NCBI GenBank assembly: GCA_013297825.1
Contig: JAAFIN010000001.1
Location: 1-64,000 of the forward strand
DNA: 64,000 nt
Direction: 5' to 3'
Source of the DNA: Cytophagales bacterium
GTDB lineage: Bacteria > Bacteroidota > Bacteroidia > Cytophagales > Microscillaceae
The notes beneath the pieces are model-generated. The model saw nothing but the letters and a program-made list of their open reading frames with translations. It made no database searches and was not told the origin of the DNA. Made by a program: the position numbers and the translations under genes. Below, piece after piece: positions 25,212 to 60,870 of this stretch. How positions within the stretch are numbered: the first letter of the stretch is position 1; each line of letters begins with the position of its first letter.

Positions 25212-25320
25212 AAAGCCCCCTAACCCCCAAAGGGGGAACAAATGCAAAGAAAACAAAATTAAGAGAAAAAAATTAAAAAATTATCATAAAAACTCCCCCT
25301 TCGGGGGTTGGGGGGCTTTT
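25212..25320. repeat. Inverted pair of family D GC-rich elements
   Basis: AAGCCCCCTAACCCCCAAAG (about 25213-25238) and TCCCCCTTCGGGGGTTGGGG (25294-25320) lie in opposite orientation about 55 bp apart between two divergent genes. Other copies are at 27061, 36373, 46325 and inside metX at 46444-46487. Confidence 0.85.
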
Positions 25321-26951: not shown

Positions 26952-27084
26952 TGTTAAATGATAAATGTTGAATGATAAATGAAACAGCCAACAGCCTTTT
27001 AACTGGCTGTTTTGTATTTACCTTTCCCCTTACTACTTACACCTTTCCCCTAATAAAAATTCCCCTTTGGGGGTTAGGGGGCTT
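26952..27084. repeat. Adjacent family A, C and D repeats
   Basis: Reversed family A units (ATGTTAAATGATAAATG to GAAACAGCC) start at the bshC stop codon, then GGCTGTTTTG (27005). Family C CTTTCCCCTTACTACTTAC (27022-27052) and a family D element TCCCCTTTGGGGGTTAGGGG (27061-27080) follow. The D element touches the stop of the next gene. Confidence 0.75.
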
Positions 27085-31427: not shown

Positions 31428-31460
31428 AACTTTTGGAGGGTTTCAAACCCTCCAAAAGTT
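31428..31460. repeat. Palindromic repeat AACTTTTGGAGGG, copy 1
   Basis: A 33-bp near-perfect palindrome with 15-bp arms and a TCA centre. Related copies are at 36425-36457 and 44712-44744. Confidence 0.85.
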
Positions 31461-31476
31461 TTTAAAAAATAAAAAA

Positions 31477-31512
31477 ACCTTTCAAATATAAATTTGAAAG
31501 GTTTTTTTTGTT
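31477..31512 (+). terminator. Terminator after the small Lys-rich gene
   Basis: AACCTTTCAAAT (31477-31488) pairs with ATTTGAAAGGTT (31492-31503), followed by T residues; A run on the left allows bidirectional use. Confidence 0.8.
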
Positions 31513-35348: not shown

Positions 35349-36407
35349 TTGGATATTTTAAAAAATTGTCCTGTATGCGGACACGAACAACATACTAATT
35401 TTTTGACTTGTAAAGATTATACTGTTTCACACGAAAAATTTTCTTTGGTAAAATGCAACCAATGTGATTTTTGTTTTACAAATCCACGACCTTCTGCCAC
35501 AGAAATTGGAAAATATTACGAGTCAGAAAAATATATTTCGCACAGCAACACCAAAAAAGGACTTTTCAGCATACTTTACCAAAATATTCGTCAAAAAGCA
35601 CTAAAAAATAAAACAAATTGGATAGAAAAATTAGCAAAAAGTGGTAATTTATCCTATAATTTAAAGGGTGTAAAATTAAAAAAAGATGAAAATTCAGAAA
35701 AAAATAAAAATCTTGATATAAGCATATTAGATTATGGTTGTGGTACAGGTGAATTTTTAAACATTTGTCAGCAAAAAGGTTGGGAAATTGCAGGAATAGA
35801 ACCCAGCGAAGATGCACGTTTGCAAGCAATAAATACAAATAAAATAAATATTTATGCTGATATTTTTGAAATTTTAGAAGAAAATCAAAAAAAAACCGTA
35901 GAAAATTCTGAAAAAGATAGTTTAGAAAATAATACACAAGAAACTATTAAAAAACAATTTGATTTTATCACGCTTTGGCACGTTTTGGAACACGTCCACG
36001 ATTTGGATAATACCATAAAAGCATTTTATGATTTATTAAAAGAAGATGGTTTTTTATTGATTGCTGTGCCTAATCACGCTACACAGGAAGCAGGATATTA
36101 CAAAGAATATTGGGCGGGTTATGATGTGCCACGACATTTGTATCATTTTACGCCAAAAACCATAGAAAAACTTTTGAAAAAATTTGATTTTGAGGTAATT
36201 CAAGAATATCCTATGATTTATGATGCGTATTATATTAGCCTATTAAGCGGTCAATATAAAAATGGTTATAAAAACTATATTTGGGCAACTTTACAAGGAT
36301 ATTTATCTAATCAGCACGCAAAAAAAAATGAAGGGAATTATTCAAGTGTGCTTTATATTTGTATAAAAAGAGAAGCCTCAACCCCAAAGGGGAGTAATTC
36401 CCAATAA
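35349..36407 (+). CDS. Class I SAM methyltransferase with N-terminal zinc ribbon
   Basis: A 352-residue protein. C7xxC10 and CNQCDFCFTNPRP (about 37-49) form a zinc ribbon. The SAM-binding motif is LDYGCGTGEFL (about 127-137), followed by FITLWHVLEHVHDL and a VPRHLYHFTPKT stretch typical of methyltransferases near glycan or quinone genes. Start is TTG at 35349; no ATG fits, since the zinc ribbon begins at once. The last about 12 residues (EASTPKGSNSQ) are encoded by a family D repeat and are probably an accidental extension. Substrate unknown. Confidence 0.82.
   Translation: MDILKNCPVCGHEQHTNFLTCKDYTVSHEKFSLVKCNQCDFCFTNPRPSATEIGKYYESEKYISHSNTKKGLFSILYQNIRQKALKNKTNWIEKLAKSGNLSYNLKGVKLKKDENSEKNKNLDISILDYGCGTGEFLNICQQKGWEIAGIEPSEDARLQAINTNKINIYADIFEILEENQKKTVENSEKDSLENNTQETIKKQFDFITLWHVLEHVHDLDNTIKAFYDLLKEDGFLLIAVPNHATQEAGYYKEYWAGYDVPRHLYHFTPKTIEKLLKKFDFEVIQEYPMIYDAYYISLLSGQYKNGYKNYIWATLQGYLSNQHAKKNEGNYSSVLYICIKREASTPKGSNSQ
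36373..36395. repeat. Family D element overlapping the 3' end of a gene
   Basis: AAGCCTCAACCCCAAAGGGG overlaps the last codons of the methyltransferase gene. Confidence 0.75.
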
Positions 36408-36424: not shown

Positions 36425-36457
36425 AACTTTTGGAGAGTTTAAAACTCTCCAAAAGTT
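36425..36457. repeat. Palindromic repeat AACTTTTGGAGAG, copy 2
   Basis: 33-bp palindrome, same family as 31428 and 44712, with one compensating G-to-A/C-to-T pair change in the arms, so pairing is preserved. Confidence 0.85.
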
Positions 36458-36514
36458 GAAACACGAATTATAATATTATTTTCCTTTACCTCTCTCCTAT
36501 TTTTTCTAATTTTA

Positions 36515-44429: not shown

Positions 44430-44545
44430 TTTGATTTATAACGAAACGTTGAGAGAATAGGCTCTATGAAACGTTGGCAACCTACCAAAAAGCAAGGTGC
44501 TAATTCCTACCTAAGTATTTTTTTTATTTTTAGGAAATATAAAAC
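44430..44545 (+). promoter_or_regulatory. SAM-I (S-box) riboswitch
   Basis: The aptamer core is readable. P1 pairs TTTATA (44435-44440) with TATAAA (44538-44543). P2 pairs AACGTT (44445-44450) with AACGTT (44470-44475), with GAG/CTC above and the kink-turn TATGAA. The conserved GGCAACCT and AAGGTGCTAATTCC stand in order. P4 pairs CCTAA with TTAGG. The loop TAGG (44458-44461) can form the expected pseudoknot with CCTA (about 44506-44509). It binds S-adenosylmethionine and would lower expression of the methionine genes downstream. P3 is very short. The ATG of the poly-Cys ORF lies 15 bases after P1, so control through its ribosome access is possible. Confidence 0.9.
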
Positions 44546-44711: not shown

Positions 44712-44744
44712 AACTTTTGGAGGGTTTTAAACCCTCCAAAAGTT
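44712..44744. repeat. Palindromic repeat AACTTTTGGAGGG, copy 3, in met leader
   Basis: A 33-bp palindrome 43 bases after the poly-Cys stop codon. It is followed by A residues rather than T, so it is not a standard intrinsic terminator on this strand; on the minus strand it would have a T run. It could still act as an attenuation hairpin. Confidence 0.8.
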
Positions 44745-44770
44745 AAAAATTACAGAAAAATCATTGTAAT

Positions 44771-44974: not shown

Positions 44975-46321
<1,347 letters not shown>

Positions 46322-46324
46322 AAG

Positions 46325-46350
46325 AAGCCCCCCAGCCCCCGAAGGGGGAG
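46325..46350. repeat. Family D element between metY and metX
   Basis: GCCCCCCAGCCCCCGAAGGG directly follows the metY stop codon. The inverted form of the same sequence lies about 110 bp further, inside metX. Confidence 0.9.
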
Positions 46351-46390: not shown

Positions 46391-47431
46391 TTGGAAAATC
46401 AAGGATTTGCAGAACTAAAATTAGACTTTTTAGAAAGTAATGCTTCCCCTTTGGGCTTGCTCCCCCTTCGGGGGCTGGGGGGCTTGGTTTTTAGTCTTTA
46501 TTACCAAACTTTTGGCACATTAAACACCCAAAAAAACAATGTTGTGTGGATAGTTCACGCCCTTACCGCTAATGCTGATGTCGTGGATTGGTGGAGTGGT
46601 TTGGTAGGAAAAGGCAAAACCATAGACACAGACAAGTATTTTGTGGTTTGTGCCAATAATTTGGGGAGTTGTTATGGAAGTACAAATCCTTTAAGCATCA
46701 ATCCACTCACAAATGAGCCTTATTATTATGATTTTCCGCTATTGACTACAAGAGATTTAGCAAATGCTTTGGAAGAATTAAGAAAATTTTTGGGAATTGA
46801 AGAAATATTGTTAGGAATGGGAGGCTCACAAGGCGGTCAAATATTGCAGGAATGGGCAATTTTAAATAATAAAATTTTTAAAAATCTGTTTTTAATTGCC
46901 ACCAATGCCAAACATTCCGCTTGGGGACAGGCTTTTAATGAAAGCCAAAGATTAGCCATAGAAAATGACCCAACTTGGGGACAAAAACACGAAAACGCAG
47001 GTAAAAATGGTATGAAAGTAGCCCGAAGTATCGCACTTTTGTCGTATCGCAATTATGAAGCATATCATATTACGCAAAATGATGAAAGAGATTTATTAGA
47101 AAATTACAAAGCAACCACTTACCAGCGTTATCAAGGCGAAAAATTATATCAACGTTTTAATGCGTTTAGTTATTATTGGCTTTCTAAGGTGATGGATTCG
47201 CACAATGTAGGGCGTGGTCGTGAAAATATTGAAAATGCACTTGCTCAAATTACTGCTAAAACGATTGTGGTAGGTATTACAAGTGATATTTTGTTTCCCA
47301 TTTCAGAACAAAAATTTTTAGCAAAACATATTCCTAATGCAGAATTTTATGAAATTCATTCAGATTTTGGGCATGATGGTTTTTTGTTGGAATACGAACA
47401 ATTAAGCAGGATTTTAAGATTTTTTGGATAA
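46391..47431 (+). CDS. metX: Homoserine O-acetyltransferase
   Basis: A 346-residue alpha/beta-hydrolase enzyme that acetylates homoserine with acetyl-CoA. The catalytic triad is S146 in GMGGSQGGQ, D299 in ITSDILFP and H328 in FGHDGFL; VVWIVHALTANADVVDWW and NNLGSCYGSTNP are typical. Start is TTG at 46391; no suitable ATG exists. Residues about 17-32 (NASPLGLLPLRGLGGL) are encoded by a GC-rich family D repeat inserted in frame between LDFLES and VFSLYYQTFGTLN. Homologues have only one or two residues there. Second gene of the operon. Confidence 0.93.
   Translation: MENQGFAELKLDFLESNASPLGLLPLRGLGGLVFSLYYQTFGTLNTQKNNVVWIVHALTANADVVDWWSGLVGKGKTIDTDKYFVVCANNLGSCYGSTNPLSINPLTNEPYYYDFPLLTTRDLANALEELRKFLGIEEILLGMGGSQGGQILQEWAILNNKIFKNLFLIATNAKHSAWGQAFNESQRLAIENDPTWGQKHENAGKNGMKVARSIALLSYRNYEAYHITQNDERDLLENYKATTYQRYQGEKLYQRFNAFSYYWLSKVMDSHNVGRGRENIENALAQITAKTIVVGITSDILFPISEQKFLAKHIPNAEFYEIHSDFGHDGFLLEYEQLSRILRFFG
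46444..46487. repeat. Family D palindromic element inside metX
   Basis: TCCCCCTTCGGGGGCTGGGG (46461 on) preceded by TTCCCCTTTGGGCTTG lies within the reading frame of metX. It matches the intergenic copies at 46325, 25294 and 27061. Confidence 0.9.
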
Positions 47432-47439
47432 TTCAGGAT

Positions 47440-47628
47440 TTTTTATCAGGATTTAAGAGTTAAAAAAAATTTATTAAACTTTGAACTTTTGAAACTTAAA
47501 TTTTGAACCTTCCTTGAACCCTTTTTTGAGCCTTTTGAACTTCTTTGAACCCTTTTTTGAGCCTTTTGAACTTCTTTGAACCCTTTTTTTAAGCCTTTTG
47601 AACTTCTTTGAACCTTTTAAACTTTAAT
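47440..47628. repeat. Family E piece and family B array before hom
   Basis: AGGATTTTTTATCAGGATTT is followed by TTGAACCCTTTTTTGAGCC and CTTTTGAACTTCTTTGAACC units with a roughly 37-bp period, which run to three bases before the hom start codon. Confidence 0.8.
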
Positions 47629-47630
47629 CT

Positions 47631-48863
47631 ATGAAAATAGGATTTTTTGGCTTTGGCTGTGTGGGTCAGGGCTTGTATGACATTCTCACAAAAACGAATT
47701 TTAATGCAGAAGTTATTAAAATTTGTGTGAAAAATAAGGAAAAACAACGCAGTATTCCAAGCGAAATATTTACGTTTGATAAATGGGAAATACTGAACAA
47801 TCCAAGTATTGACCTTGTGGTTGAAATGATAGATGATGCCAAAGAAGCATACCAAATCGTAAAATATGCCCTCCAAAATGGTAAAAATGTGGTAACTGCT
47901 AATAAAAAAATGTTAGCAGAAAATTTGGTGGAGTTTCTTGAAATTCAAGAAAAATTTGGTACTGCATTGCTTTATGAAGCCTCTGCTTGTGGCAGTATTC
48001 CCATTATTCGCAATTTGGAAGAATATTATGATAATGAACTTTTGGGCAATGTGCAGGGGATTTTTAATGGGTCGTCTAATTATATTTTATCCAAAATATT
48101 TCAAGAAAAAATGCCTTACGAAACCGCCCTTGCACAAGCTCAAGCATTAGGTTTTGCAGAAAGCAATCCAATATTAGACGTAGGAGGTTTTGATGCGAAG
48201 TACAAACTTTGTATTATCACTGCACACGCTTATGGATTGTGCATTGCTCCAAATGAAGTTTTTAATTATGGTATTCAGAATTTTTCGGAATATGATTTGA
48301 AATTTGCACAAGAAAAAAATCTCAAAATTAAGCTCATTGCAAGCGTTGGCAAAATCTCTGAAAACGAAATTTCGCTTTCTGTAATGCCTCAATTTATTCA
48401 CCCAAAACACGAATTGTATTATGTAGAAAATGAATATAATGGCGTGATTGTGGAAGCTGGTTTTTCGGACAAACAGATTTTTGTGGGAAAAGGTGCAGGC
48501 GGACACCCAACAGGTTCTGCGGTGCTTTCTGACATTTCTGCAATTTCGTATCAATATAAATATGAGTACAAAAAACGCCAAAAACGCCTTCCTTTGCGAT
48601 ATGTGAAGCACCAAATATTAGAGATTTATGTGCGTTATCACCAAGACGAAGATTTGAAAGGCTTAGATTTTCAAGAAATTAGCGAAAAATACGAGGGCAG
48701 AGAAAGCAAATATCTTATTGGGACAATTAGCTTAGAAAATCTTTTCCAGCTTCAAAATGTATTACCTGAACGCAATATTTTTATTGTAAATACAGGGCGA
48801 AAAGTGATACAAAATTTGTTTCAATTAGCCCAAACCGAAAAACAAAATTTGGCAACTGCTTAA
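47631..48863 (+). CDS. hom: Homoserine dehydrogenase
   Basis: The 410-residue enzyme reduces aspartate semialdehyde to homoserine, feeding metX. The N-terminal NAD(P) motif is GFFGFGCVGQGL (about 4-15). VVTANKKMLAE, YEASACGSIPIIRNL and GIFNGSSNYIL mark the catalytic domain, followed by ALGFAESNPILDVGGFDAKYK with the catalytic acid/base residues. The last about 90 residues may form an ACT-like regulatory part. It is a monofunctional form, not fused to aspartokinase. Third gene of the SAM-regulated operon. Confidence 0.93.
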   Translation: MKIGFFGFGCVGQGLYDILTKTNFNAEVIKICVKNKEKQRSIPSEIFTFDKWEILNNPSIDLVVEMIDDAKEAYQIVKYALQNGKNVVTANKKMLAENLVEFLEIQEKFGTALLYEASACGSIPIIRNLEEYYDNELLGNVQGIFNGSSNYILSKIFQEKMPYETALAQAQALGFAESNPILDVGGFDAKYKLCIITAHAYGLCIAPNEVFNYGIQNFSEYDLKFAQEKNLKIKLIASVGKISENEISLSVMPQFIHPKHELYYVENEYNGVIVEAGFSDKQIFVGKGAGGHPTGSAVLSDISAISYQYKYEYKKRQKRLPLRYVKHQILEIYVRYHQDEDLKGLDFQEISEKYEGRESKYLIGTISLENLFQLQNVLPERNIFIVNTGRKVIQNLFQLAQTEKQNLATA

Positions 48864-49020
48864 AAAGTTCAAAAGTTTAAGGTTCAAAAAGTTCAAAGTT
48901 TAAGGTTCAAAAAGTTCAAAGTTTAAGGTTCAAAATTATTTTCCTTATTCCTGACTTCTGATTACTTTTAAATAAAACTGCATTTTTTTTCAAAAAAATA
49001 ATAATAGATAAGACAAAATA
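48864..49020. repeat. Family B array after hom
   Basis: AAAAAGTTCAAAAGTTTAAG and three copies of GTTCAAAGTTTAAGGTTCAA follow the hom stop codon; the remainder is AT-rich. Confidence 0.75.
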
Positions 49021-52848: not shown

Positions 52849-52879
52849 TTTTTATAATTTTTTTGATAATTTTGCAAAA

Positions 52880-53318
52880 ATACAAAAGAGTTCAAAAAGC
52901 TCAAAGGCTTAAAAAGCTCAAAGGTTCAAAAAGCTCAAAGGCTTAAAAGGCTTAAAAAGCTCAAAGGCTTAAAAGCTCAAAGGCTCAAAGGCTTAAAAAG
53001 CTCAAAGGCTTAAAAAGCTCAAAGGCTTAAAAAGCTCAAAGGTTCAAAAAGCTCAAAGGCTTAAAAGGCTTAAAAGGCTTAAAAGGCTTAAAAAGCTTAA
53101 AAGGCTTAAAAAGCTCAAAGGCTTAAAAAGCTTAAAAAGCTCAAAGGCTCAAAGGCTTAAAAGTTTAAAAAGTAACTTTTTTTAGATTTCTTTTGAACTT
53201 TTTTGAACCTCTTTGAACCTCTTTGAACTTTTTTGAATTTTTTTGAACCTCTTTGAACCCTTTTGAACATCTTTGAACCCTTTTGAACATCTTTGAACCT
53301 CTTTTTGAGCCTTCTTTT
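52880..53318. repeat. Longest family B array (about 440 bp)
   Basis: About thirty imperfect units alternate AAAAAGCTCAAAGGCTTAAA and AAGGCTTAAAAGGC (52885-53168), then switch to the inverse strand form TTTGAACCTCTTTGAACC (53190-53305). The array stretches from just outside aroE to the base before the mtgA start codon. Units are 8-9 bp (GCTYAAARR) in combinations of about 17 bp. Confidence 0.9.
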
Positions 53319-54008
53319 ATGAAAAAATATCTATTTCTCTCACTCAAAATATTTGCTCTATTATTTGGTTTATTATTTTTGAATATTTTGTGGTTAAAAT
53401 GGTTTCCTGTATTATTTACGCCAACAATGTTTTTTAGGAGTATGGAAGCGTGGGGCGAGGGCAAAGATACACGCATTTATTACACGTGGAAAAATTATGA
53501 CCAAATAGCTGATGAAGTCAAACTTGCGGTTATTACGTCAGAAGACCAACGTTTTCTCAGGCACGGTGGTATTGATTATGAAGCGATAAAAGTGGCTATT
53601 GAAGAAAATAAACATCAACAACAACAGCGAGGAGCAAGTACGATTACGCAACAGGTTGCCAAAAATGTATTCCTTTGGCAAGGTGGAGGATATTTTCGCA
53701 AGGCGTTGGAAGTGCCTATTACATATTTGATAGAATGGACTTGGGGTAAAAAACGTATTTTGGAAGTATATCTCAATATTGCAGAAATGGCTCCTCAAAC
53801 ATTTGGCGTGGGGGCATTAAGCAAAAAATATTTTAAAAAAGATGCCAAAAACCTTAATATTTATGAATCTGCTACCATTTCAGCAGTTTTGCCTAATCCA
53901 CGTTATTGGCTTGTGAATAATCCAAATCAAACTGTGATTTTTCGTAGAAATCATACGCTTTATCAAATGCAACTTTTTGGAGGAATTGGTTATTTAAAAA
54001 ATTTATAA
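53319..54008 (+). CDS. mtgA: Monofunctional peptidoglycan glycosyltransferase
   Basis: A 229-residue inner-membrane glycosyltransferase (GT51) polymerising lipid II. One anchor helix (about 8-28) precedes the catalytic domain. The catalytic Glu is E75 in VITSEDQRFLRHGG; RGASTITQQVAKNVFLW, RKALEVPITYLIEW, KKRILEVYLNIAEM and SAVLPNPRYW are the remaining conserved motifs. The ATG at 53319 is chosen; a longer frame begins inside the repeat array. Confidence 0.95.
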   Translation: MKKYLFLSLKIFALLFGLLFLNILWLKWFPVLFTPTMFFRSMEAWGEGKDTRIYYTWKNYDQIADEVKLAVITSEDQRFLRHGGIDYEAIKVAIEENKHQQQQRGASTITQQVAKNVFLWQGGGYFRKALEVPITYLIEWTWGKKRILEVYLNIAEMAPQTFGVGALSKKYFKKDAKNLNIYESATISAVLPNPRYWLVNNPNQTVIFRRNHTLYQMQLFGGIGYLKNL

Positions 54009-56635: not shown

Positions 56636-57523
56636 AAATCTATCTTTTTCTCTAAAATCTTTATGCAAAATAATATTTTGAAAATTGTGTTTTTTTGATA
56701 GTGAAATCATTTCATTTCCAAAACTTTCATTTATTTCAAAAAAAATATGTCCATCATCTTTTAAAAAATTTTGGGCAAAAATTAAGATTTTTTCATAAAA
56801 AATCAATGGATTTTCATTTTCTACAAATAATGCCAAATGTGGCTCAAAATCCAATACATTTTTTTGCATATCTTTTTTCTCATATTCACAGATATAAGGT
56901 GGATTGCTTACGATAATGTCTAATTTTTGATTAAAAGCATTATTTTTTGAAATAGTATTTTCTAAAGTAATATCTTTTAAAATATCTTGTTCAAAAAAAT
57001 TGATGTTTTGAATATTATTCAAAATTTTATTTTCTTTTGCTAATTCCAATGCCTTCAAACTTATATCTGTTGCAAAAACAACCGCATTTTTGAAAAAATT
57101 AGCCAAAGAAAGTCCAATACAACCTGTGCCTGTGCAAATATCTGCAATCTGAAAATTGCTATTTTTTGGAAAAGAATTTTGTATCAAAAACATCAATTCT
57201 TCGGTTTCAGGGCGAGGAATAAGTGCATTTTTGGAGGTTTTTATACGAAGATTATCAAAAAAAGTATAACCTAAAATATGTTGTAAAGGCTCATTTTGAG
57301 CAATTCTTTCCATAAAATTAGCTAACATTTGATTTTTTTCTAAAAAAATATTTTCTTCTAATGTGATTTTTTTATCCAATAAAATATCTAATTTTTTTAA
57401 ATCAAAAATTTCTTCTAAAAAATAATAAGCAATCGTTTGAATTTCATTGGTAGAAATTTGTGCGTTTTTTGCTAAAATCGCAGAAAAACAATCATTAAAA
57501 AGGGATTTGGAGGAAAAGTTCAA
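56615..57523 (-). CDS. prmC: Peptide chain release factor N5-glutamine methyltransferase
   Basis: A 302-residue enzyme methylating the Gln of the GGQ motif in release factors. LIPRPETEELM, the SAM motif DICTGTGCIGLSL and the catalytic SNPPYIC are visible, and an N-terminal helical domain (about 1-90) is typical. It is convergent with the O-methyltransferase. Upstream of its start is a family B array. Confidence 0.94.
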   Translation of the reverse strand: MNFSSKSLFNDCFSAILAKNAQISTNEIQTIAYYFLEEIFDLKKLDILLDKKITLEENIFLEKNQMLANFMERIAQNEPLQHILGYTFFDNLRIKTSKNALIPRPETEELMFLIQNSFPKNSNFQIADICTGTGCIGLSLANFFKNAVVFATDISLKALELAKENKILNNIQNINFFEQDILKDITLENTISKNNAFNQKLDIIVSNPPYICEYEKKDMQKNVLDFEPHLALFVENENPLIFYEKILIFAQNFLKDDGHIFFEINESFGNEMISLSKKHNFQNIILHKDFREKDRFLVIRNQ

Positions 57524-57740
57524 GGTTTAAGGTTTAAAGTTTAAGGTTTAAAGTTTAAGGTTTAAAGTTCAAGGTTTAAAGTTCAAGGTTCAAAAAGTTC
57601 AAGGTTCAAAAAGTTCAAAAAGTTCAAAAATTTAATTTGTATTTAATCCTGCCAATCTTATAATCCTCTAATCCTGCTCTTATTTGGCTGTTTATTCATA
57701 ATTCATAATTTATAATTCATAATTCATCATTAAAATCGCT
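57524..57740. repeat. Family B, E and A repeats between divergent prmC and rsmA
   Basis: GTTTAAAGTTCAAGGTTTAA units begin directly at the prmC start codon (57527-57632). AATCCTGCCAATCTTATAAT (E type) and GGCTGTTTATTCATAATTC (A, 57683) follow. The remaining bases to 57856 are AT-rich and hold the rsmA promoter presumably. Confidence 0.75.
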
Positions 57741-60668: not shown

Positions 60669-60870
60669 AAAAAAAGGGTTTAAAAGTTCAAGGTTTAAGG
60701 TTCAAAGAAGTTCAAAAAGGGTTCAAAGAAGTTCAAAAAGGGTTCAAAAGGGTTCAAAGAAGTTCAAAAAGAGTTCAAAGAATTTTAAAATACTTTTTGA
60801 GCCTTTGGATATTTTGAGCTTTTTGAACATTTGAGCTTTTTAAGCTTTTTGAACATTTGAACTTTTTATT
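60669..60870. repeat. Family B array between the two clpP genes
   Basis: AAGTTCAAAAAGGGTTCAAAG units (60715-60780) and inverse TTTGAGCTTTTTAAGC and GAACATTTGAGC (60805-60868) lie between the genes. Its edge touches the start codon of the downstream clpP. Confidence 0.8.

Follow-up and report, generated by a model that had tools for sequence, protein, structure and literature searches.

Does the GC-rich palindromic repeat found within metX of this Cytophagales bacterium interrupt a native coding sequence and add a peptide to the enzyme, and, if so, does the same occur in other genes of the genome? The window, by which we mean the whole stretch of 64,000 nucleotides analysed, carries metX in the order SAM riboswitch, metY, metX and then homoserine dehydrogenase, on a contig of 92.6 kb (Table 1). 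The MetX product matches TIGR01392 with E=3.5e-94, a score under the curated cut-off of that family, and the match begins at residue 34. The earlier note had assigned residues 17-32 of MetX (NASPLGLLPLRGLGGL) to a repeat that also occurs in non-coding DNA, and our study confirms this assignment: these residues are encoded, in the metX frame, by an exact copy of a 26-bp consensus together with a 16-nt extension. The GC content of the repeat core is 77%, compared with 36% for the metX gene and 31% for a sample of the genome. The extension has kin among distant copies on contigs C355, C320 and C12, for example, with 93-98% identity across 42-50 nt. Among the non-coding copies listed with that claim, the pair at 25212-25320 consists of full members of the family, the one at 46325 is the inverted copy upstream of metX, the one at 27061 is a 25-nt variant and the one at 36373 is degenerate.

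Table 1. Positions of the metX locus, the repeat copies and the AT-rich arrays within the window.
Feature	Position	Strand	Remarks
SAM (S-box) riboswitch, 5' of the metY-metX operon	44433..44545	+	Rfam RF00162, 71.3 bits; gathering score 44.4
metY (O-acetylhomoserine sulfhydrylase)	44996..46321	+	TIGR01326, 685 bits; cut-off 495
Inverted partner copy	46325..46350	-	3 nt past the metY stop codon; 109 bp upstream of the metX copy
metX (MetX, homoserine O-acetyltransferase family)	46391..47431	+	TTG start; 346 aa; TIGR01392
16-nt 5' extension TTCCCCTTTGGGCTTG (truncated second copy)	46444..46459	+	peptide SPLGL; also present in a few other genome copies
26-bp G-type copy CTCCCCCTTCGGGGGCTGGGGGGCTT in metX	46460..46485	+	exact consensus match; peptide LPLRGLGGL; covers codons 23-32
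Intergenic A-type copy, left half of head-to-head pair	25213..25238	-	
Intergenic G-type copy, right half of head-to-head pair	25293..25318	+	
Intergenic A-type variant, one C short, 25 nt	27060..27084	+	sequence
Degenerate intergenic relative CTCCCCTTTGGGGTTGAGGCTT	36373..36394	-	sequence
AT-rich arrays	47489-47622, 48855-48949, 52860-53339, 57515-57638, 60678-60867		

The comparison with related MetX proteins that had been suggested as a check gave a clear answer, as the segment is absent from all 31 aligned relatives, including those of three genomes of the same family (G002, G004 and G006) that carry the repeat elsewhere. The distance from the conserved ES to the Y(x)TxG motif is mostly 10 residues in the relatives versus 21 here, a net gain of 11 residues rather than the roughly 16 originally supposed. 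It had also been stated that the flanks (LDFLES and the sequence that follows the repeat) join well once the repeat is removed; on the contrary, excising residues 17-32 leaves the protein five residues too short across a conserved SG-x-x-LP turn, and therefore the insert has replaced or displaced this turn as well. An AlphaFold2 model of MetX reached a mean pLDDT of only 38 and was discarded.

It is important to consider that the repeat might belong to the 5'-untranslated region, with translation starting at the TTG at its end (46484, MVFSLYYQTFG...) and nothing inserted in the protein. There are in-frame TTG codons within and just past the repeat, the start called at 46391 is itself a TTG, and Di Nocera et al. 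(PMC3733652) have warned that many N-terminal intragenic REPs reflect misannotated starts. However, the codons that precede the repeat encode FAELKLDFLES, which fits the pattern F-x5-F-x-LES of 30 relatives far beyond chance (its score was matched by none of 5000 random stop-free peptides of the same base composition); the TTG at 46391 lies where the relatives start, and a start past the repeat would remove a segment of MetX present in all of them. We thus consider a downstream start improbable. Since FAELKLDFLES is native MetX and the TTG is aligned with the starts of the relatives, the alignments place the insert inside the native MetX coding sequence, unless the start has moved. The core is a perfect copy of the consensus, and the insertion is therefore probably recent.

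Our study identified 424 copies of the repeat in the 5.06-Mb genome (362 contigs) at three or fewer mismatches, versus none for a reversed-pattern control; the 64-kb window alone has three close matches, versus none in 100 shuffles. An alignment of 194 copies delimits a sharp 26-bp element with weakly biased flanks, and resolves two subtypes, TTCCCCCTTYGGGGGTTAGGGGGCTT (n=96) and CTCCCCCTTYGGGGGYTGGGGGGCTT (n=96). Positions -1 and 16 covary (T with A, C with G), consistent with either two subfamilies or a closing base pair. Neighbouring copies less than 300 bp apart were found 23 times in the orientation (-,+), with gaps of 15-173 nt, four times in (-,-), once in (+,+) and never in (+,-), so that head-to-head pairs are the genome-wide rule, and solo copies are common too. 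The inverted copy after metY had been correctly noticed, together with the proposal that it signals local transposition or recombination; because the same layout recurs in 23 of 28 cases of neighbouring copies across the genome sample, no such local event needs to be invoked. A C5/G5 stem and alternative stems are predicted for the single 26-mer, its DNA fold is no stronger than that of shuffles of the same composition, and no Rfam family was matched at the repeat. None of the six reading frames of the repeat contains a stop codon. The window also holds another intergenic hairpin family, AACTTTTGGAGGGTTTCAAACCCTCCAAAAGTT (31428-31481, 36425-36478 and 44712-44765), and AT-rich units of 8-10 bp, AAGTTCAA / AAAGGCTTAA, that form long arrays between genes and are found as inverted arrays elsewhere.

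The search for copies inside coding frames, which the earlier note had recommended, revealed many further cases. In an unbiased 984-kb regional sample of the genome, in which genes were taken by a longest-ORF rule as ORFs of at least 120 aa, 48 of 104 copies lie in or over such ORFs, which make up 81% of the DNA; therefore, the copies avoid genes, though not by much. By position in these ORFs, 23 copies fall in the first 60 codons, 19 in the interior and six at the C-terminus. The ORFs affected include IspG, IcmF (two copies), a CusA-type RND pump (two), a DsbD-like protein (two), PBP1C, MnmD, LpxK and a LysM protein (four), among others; names that lack an NCBIfam or PDB hit are a reading of the sequence. 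Relative to solved homologues, the repeat peptide coincides with 19 additional residues in LpxK (4ehx), 19 in kynurenine 3-monooxygenase (6lkd) and six in the AspRS of the sister genus G004 (contig C239; 6wom), and MnmD has 17 additional residues at a position where its aligned relatives show a gap. The peptides of IspG and IcmF are located in variable linkers. In G002, which represents a different genus, other copies in other frames occupy the same linkers of both proteins (the IspG peptides are SPLTPEGG, LLPLRGLGGF and PPSGAGGL), and the IcmF of G004 has peptides that resemble repeat products. These cases suggest repeated hits on tolerant sites, with shared descent as an alternative for both genes. 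At the DNA level, IcmF and its 89%-identical homologue in G007 aligned, within the part examined, downstream of the insert only, since the two linkers are dissimilar. In-frame copies were also found in G006, for example inside a restriction-modification type enzyme (C38). Divergence is higher among copies in genes than among those between genes (p = 0.002). Separately, the peptides LTPTLSKGEG, SPILSKGEG and LPHPLPLSEGEG, found in the icmF genes of G002 (L194) and G004 (L188) and at 8450-10046 of L157 (an ORF in L093), look like in-frame products of a second GC-rich palindrome family.

The frame in which the repeat is read tracks its context: hydrophobic frames are used at N-termini, often in signal peptides, and hydrophilic ones inside proteins. 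The hydrophobic frames (LPLWGLGGF, SPFGGWGAF) account for 18 of 23 N-terminal cases versus 4 of 19 internal ones (p = 0.0005), and N-terminal placement itself (23/48) exceeds the 14.7% expected under uniform insertion (p = 5e-8). In some proteins, the repeat appears to complete the signal peptide, as in MQKILFLMWF-LPLWGLGGF-SYAQQ and MRCSPFLVFSLLYLWIF-SPFGGWGAF-AQTT. A crude signal-peptide score was positive in 10 of 21 cases versus 27% of other ORFs (p = 0.05); given this weak support, the signal-peptide claim relies chiefly on where the repeat lies, on its frame use and on inspection, and some of the N-terminal cases may stem from misannotated starts. At the other end of proteins, APQPPKGE followed by a stop codon forms the terminus of several genes. 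As a tentative extension of these results, to which we give somewhat less than even odds, an orphan mobile palindrome might act as a routine donor of protein segments in one Bacteroidota lineage: its six stop-free frames would give different peptide types, with the hydrophobic ones (LPLWGLGGF, SPFGGWGAF...AQ, lipobox GLGGC) repeatedly taken into signal peptides and the hydrophilic Pro/Gly ones into linkers.

Our preferred reading, to which we assign a probability of roughly 0.85, is that a REP-like mobile palindrome of about 26 bp has spread to more than 400 sites and that its in-frame insertions have been kept where they are tolerated, metX being one case. Copies would have dispersed across the genome, some of them alone and others in head-to-head pairs. 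Where the net length inserted is divisible by three, a short peptide would be added and the gene would survive, because none of the six frames contains a stop; out-of-frame or damaging insertions would presumably be lost by selection. Those retained would lie at tolerant sites such as signal peptides, N-termini, inter-domain linkers, surface loops and C-termini. In metX, a form of roughly 45 bp would have entered the loop that follows LES, the first conserved motif, with a net addition of 11 residues. The frames are intact and the flanks conserved around such peptides, which may be tolerated in working proteins, and the MetX bearing the insert is presumed to be active.

Regarding the mover, the copies would arise by transposition, probably through a single-strand enzyme of the IS200/RAYT type that works in trans or is no longer present. 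None of the five RAYT/IS200-type genes (C325, C208, C170, C93 and C66) could be recognized as the cognate transposase, and the repeat does not flank any of the five loci in the stretches examined, which contig ends limit for C325 and C66. The C325 gene was considered as a candidate and rejected: its close relatives occur in G011, which has no copies of the repeat, and are absent from the repeat-rich G002 and G006, a distribution that shows no correlation. The absence of a RAYT flanked by the repeat, together with this mismatch in distribution, would fit a mover that acts in trans or has been lost; Di Nocera et al. say likewise of the mover of CGTC REPs (PMC3733652). Four of the RAYT/IS200-type genes have other palindromes as neighbours: that of C325 lies beside an array of TAGCACACACTTTTAGTGTGTG, and those of C170, C93 and C66 lie beside ACGCAGGGTATAAAACCCTGCGT, CCCCACGTTTCACGTGGGG and ACCTCCGTAAACTACGGT, respectively. 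The genome hosts several REP systems. In G004 (C100, L217, about 957-1493), a tandem repeat, WILKSNYGAVGFSNPTMVLLDSQIQ, open in several frames, is located upstream of metX and adjoins a RAYT-like gene.

Three other explanations concern the origin or role of the repeat rather than the start of metX. It could be an exapted regulatory RNA hairpin whose stem with the metY-side copy controls metX translation or transcript stability, the coding of a peptide being incidental. The two copies are predicted to pair as RNA in a long and very stable stem (-84 kcal/mol, z = -6.5) whose loop contains the metX start, a SAM riboswitch lies upstream of metY, and many intergenic copies adjoin stop codons (23 of 59 distances are within 7 nt). 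Against this, any head-to-head pair folds into such a stem and pairing is genome-wide, and many copies lie deep inside unrelated genes; we regard this explanation as doubtful, and a regulatory side effect of the predicted metY-metX stem in the SAM-riboswitch operon as possible. A further possibility is that recombination, gene conversion or replication slippage spread the repeat and that the metX copy derives from the metY-side one. This would agree with the 24-nt core that is identical in these two copies 109 bp apart and with a cognate transposase not being found among the five RAYT/IS200-type genes. It is nevertheless unlikely, as the copies, whose 26-bp boundary is fixed, lie in unrelated contexts and on many contigs, and the 16-nt extension of the metX copy is absent from the metY-side copy and shared with distant ones. 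Finally, fragmented assemblies such as this one, in which repeats provoke misjoins, can raise the suspicion of an assembly or binning artefact, which here is scarcely credible: the metX contig keeps the order metY, metX and homoserine dehydrogenase, frames remain uninterrupted and homology is seen to either side of the inserts, and such inserts recur in independent assemblies of other genera.

A mobile REP-like palindrome, as we favour, can be compared with several known systems. Like the Rickettsia palindromic elements (RPE-1 to RPE-8 and later), which add a peptide to working proteins (PMC10969869, PMC3733652), it is found both in intergenic DNA and in frame in many unrelated genes. The likeness to these elements that had been pointed out holds for function and not for membership: our family belongs to another phylum, differs in sequence, measures 26 bp rather than about 100-150 bp and is read in all six frames; its consensus is free of the CGTC end of RPE-4 and RPE-6, and a longer element of the RPE-1 type is absent. 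GTAG/CGTC REPs are hairpins of 20-40 bp whose dimers are mostly head-to-head and 20-100 bp apart, many of them by stop codons, and some lie inside ORFs as dimers coding for 20-30 aa (Di Nocera et al. 2013, PMC3733652). Our repeat resembles them in its short length, high copy number, predicted hairpin, head-to-head pairs and proximity to stop codons; unlike them, it shows no GTAG or CGTC end in the profile of 192 copies (96 per subtype), and nearly half of the sampled copies are in or over ORFs, whereas those REPs are mostly intergenic (PMC3733652). As in REPINs (PMC3116915, PMC2817692), REP-like sequences form inverted pairs with a short spacer in a genome that has RAYT genes; unlike in RAYT REPtrons (PMC3116915, PMC2817692), the RAYT genes found are flanked by other palindromes or by none. 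ERIC and other MITEs with intragenic copies (Delihas, cited in PMC10969869) are likewise non-autonomous and sometimes give in-frame fusions; our element differs in being much shorter and apparently in lacking a spacer core bounded by terminal inverted repeats, though its pairs resemble such repeats.

At one mismatch or fewer, the genome has 361 copies and three other genera of the family have 82, 43 and 33, with none in most of the others; a small number of further genomes within the class have low copy numbers, and the repeat occurs in 12 of 395 genomes drawn from the phylum. A search of the open literature yielded neither an account of this repeat nor a report of palindromic repeats in frame in genes of Bacteroidota. 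We class the repeat as a REP-like family that is new and orphan and whose in-frame invasion of genes is unusually heavy, a functional analogue of RPEs and intragenic REPs, and it is notable for its scale, for the absence of an evident transposase and for a frame use that follows context.

The best-known cases of in-frame invasion of genes by palindromic repeats are those of Rickettsia, for which reductive evolution offered an easy excuse. Here, such invasion is extensive in a Bacteroidota genome of 5 Mb, including enzymes of essential type such as IspG and LpxK (and AspRS in the sister genus). For annotators, the GC-rich Pro/Gly segments of these proteins, such as SPLTPKGG, PPSGAGGL and LPLWGLGGF, are repeat-derived. 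The family offers a clean system in which to study the entry of new peptide segments into proteins, the frames that selection retains and the means by which a REP lacking an evident RAYT is moved.
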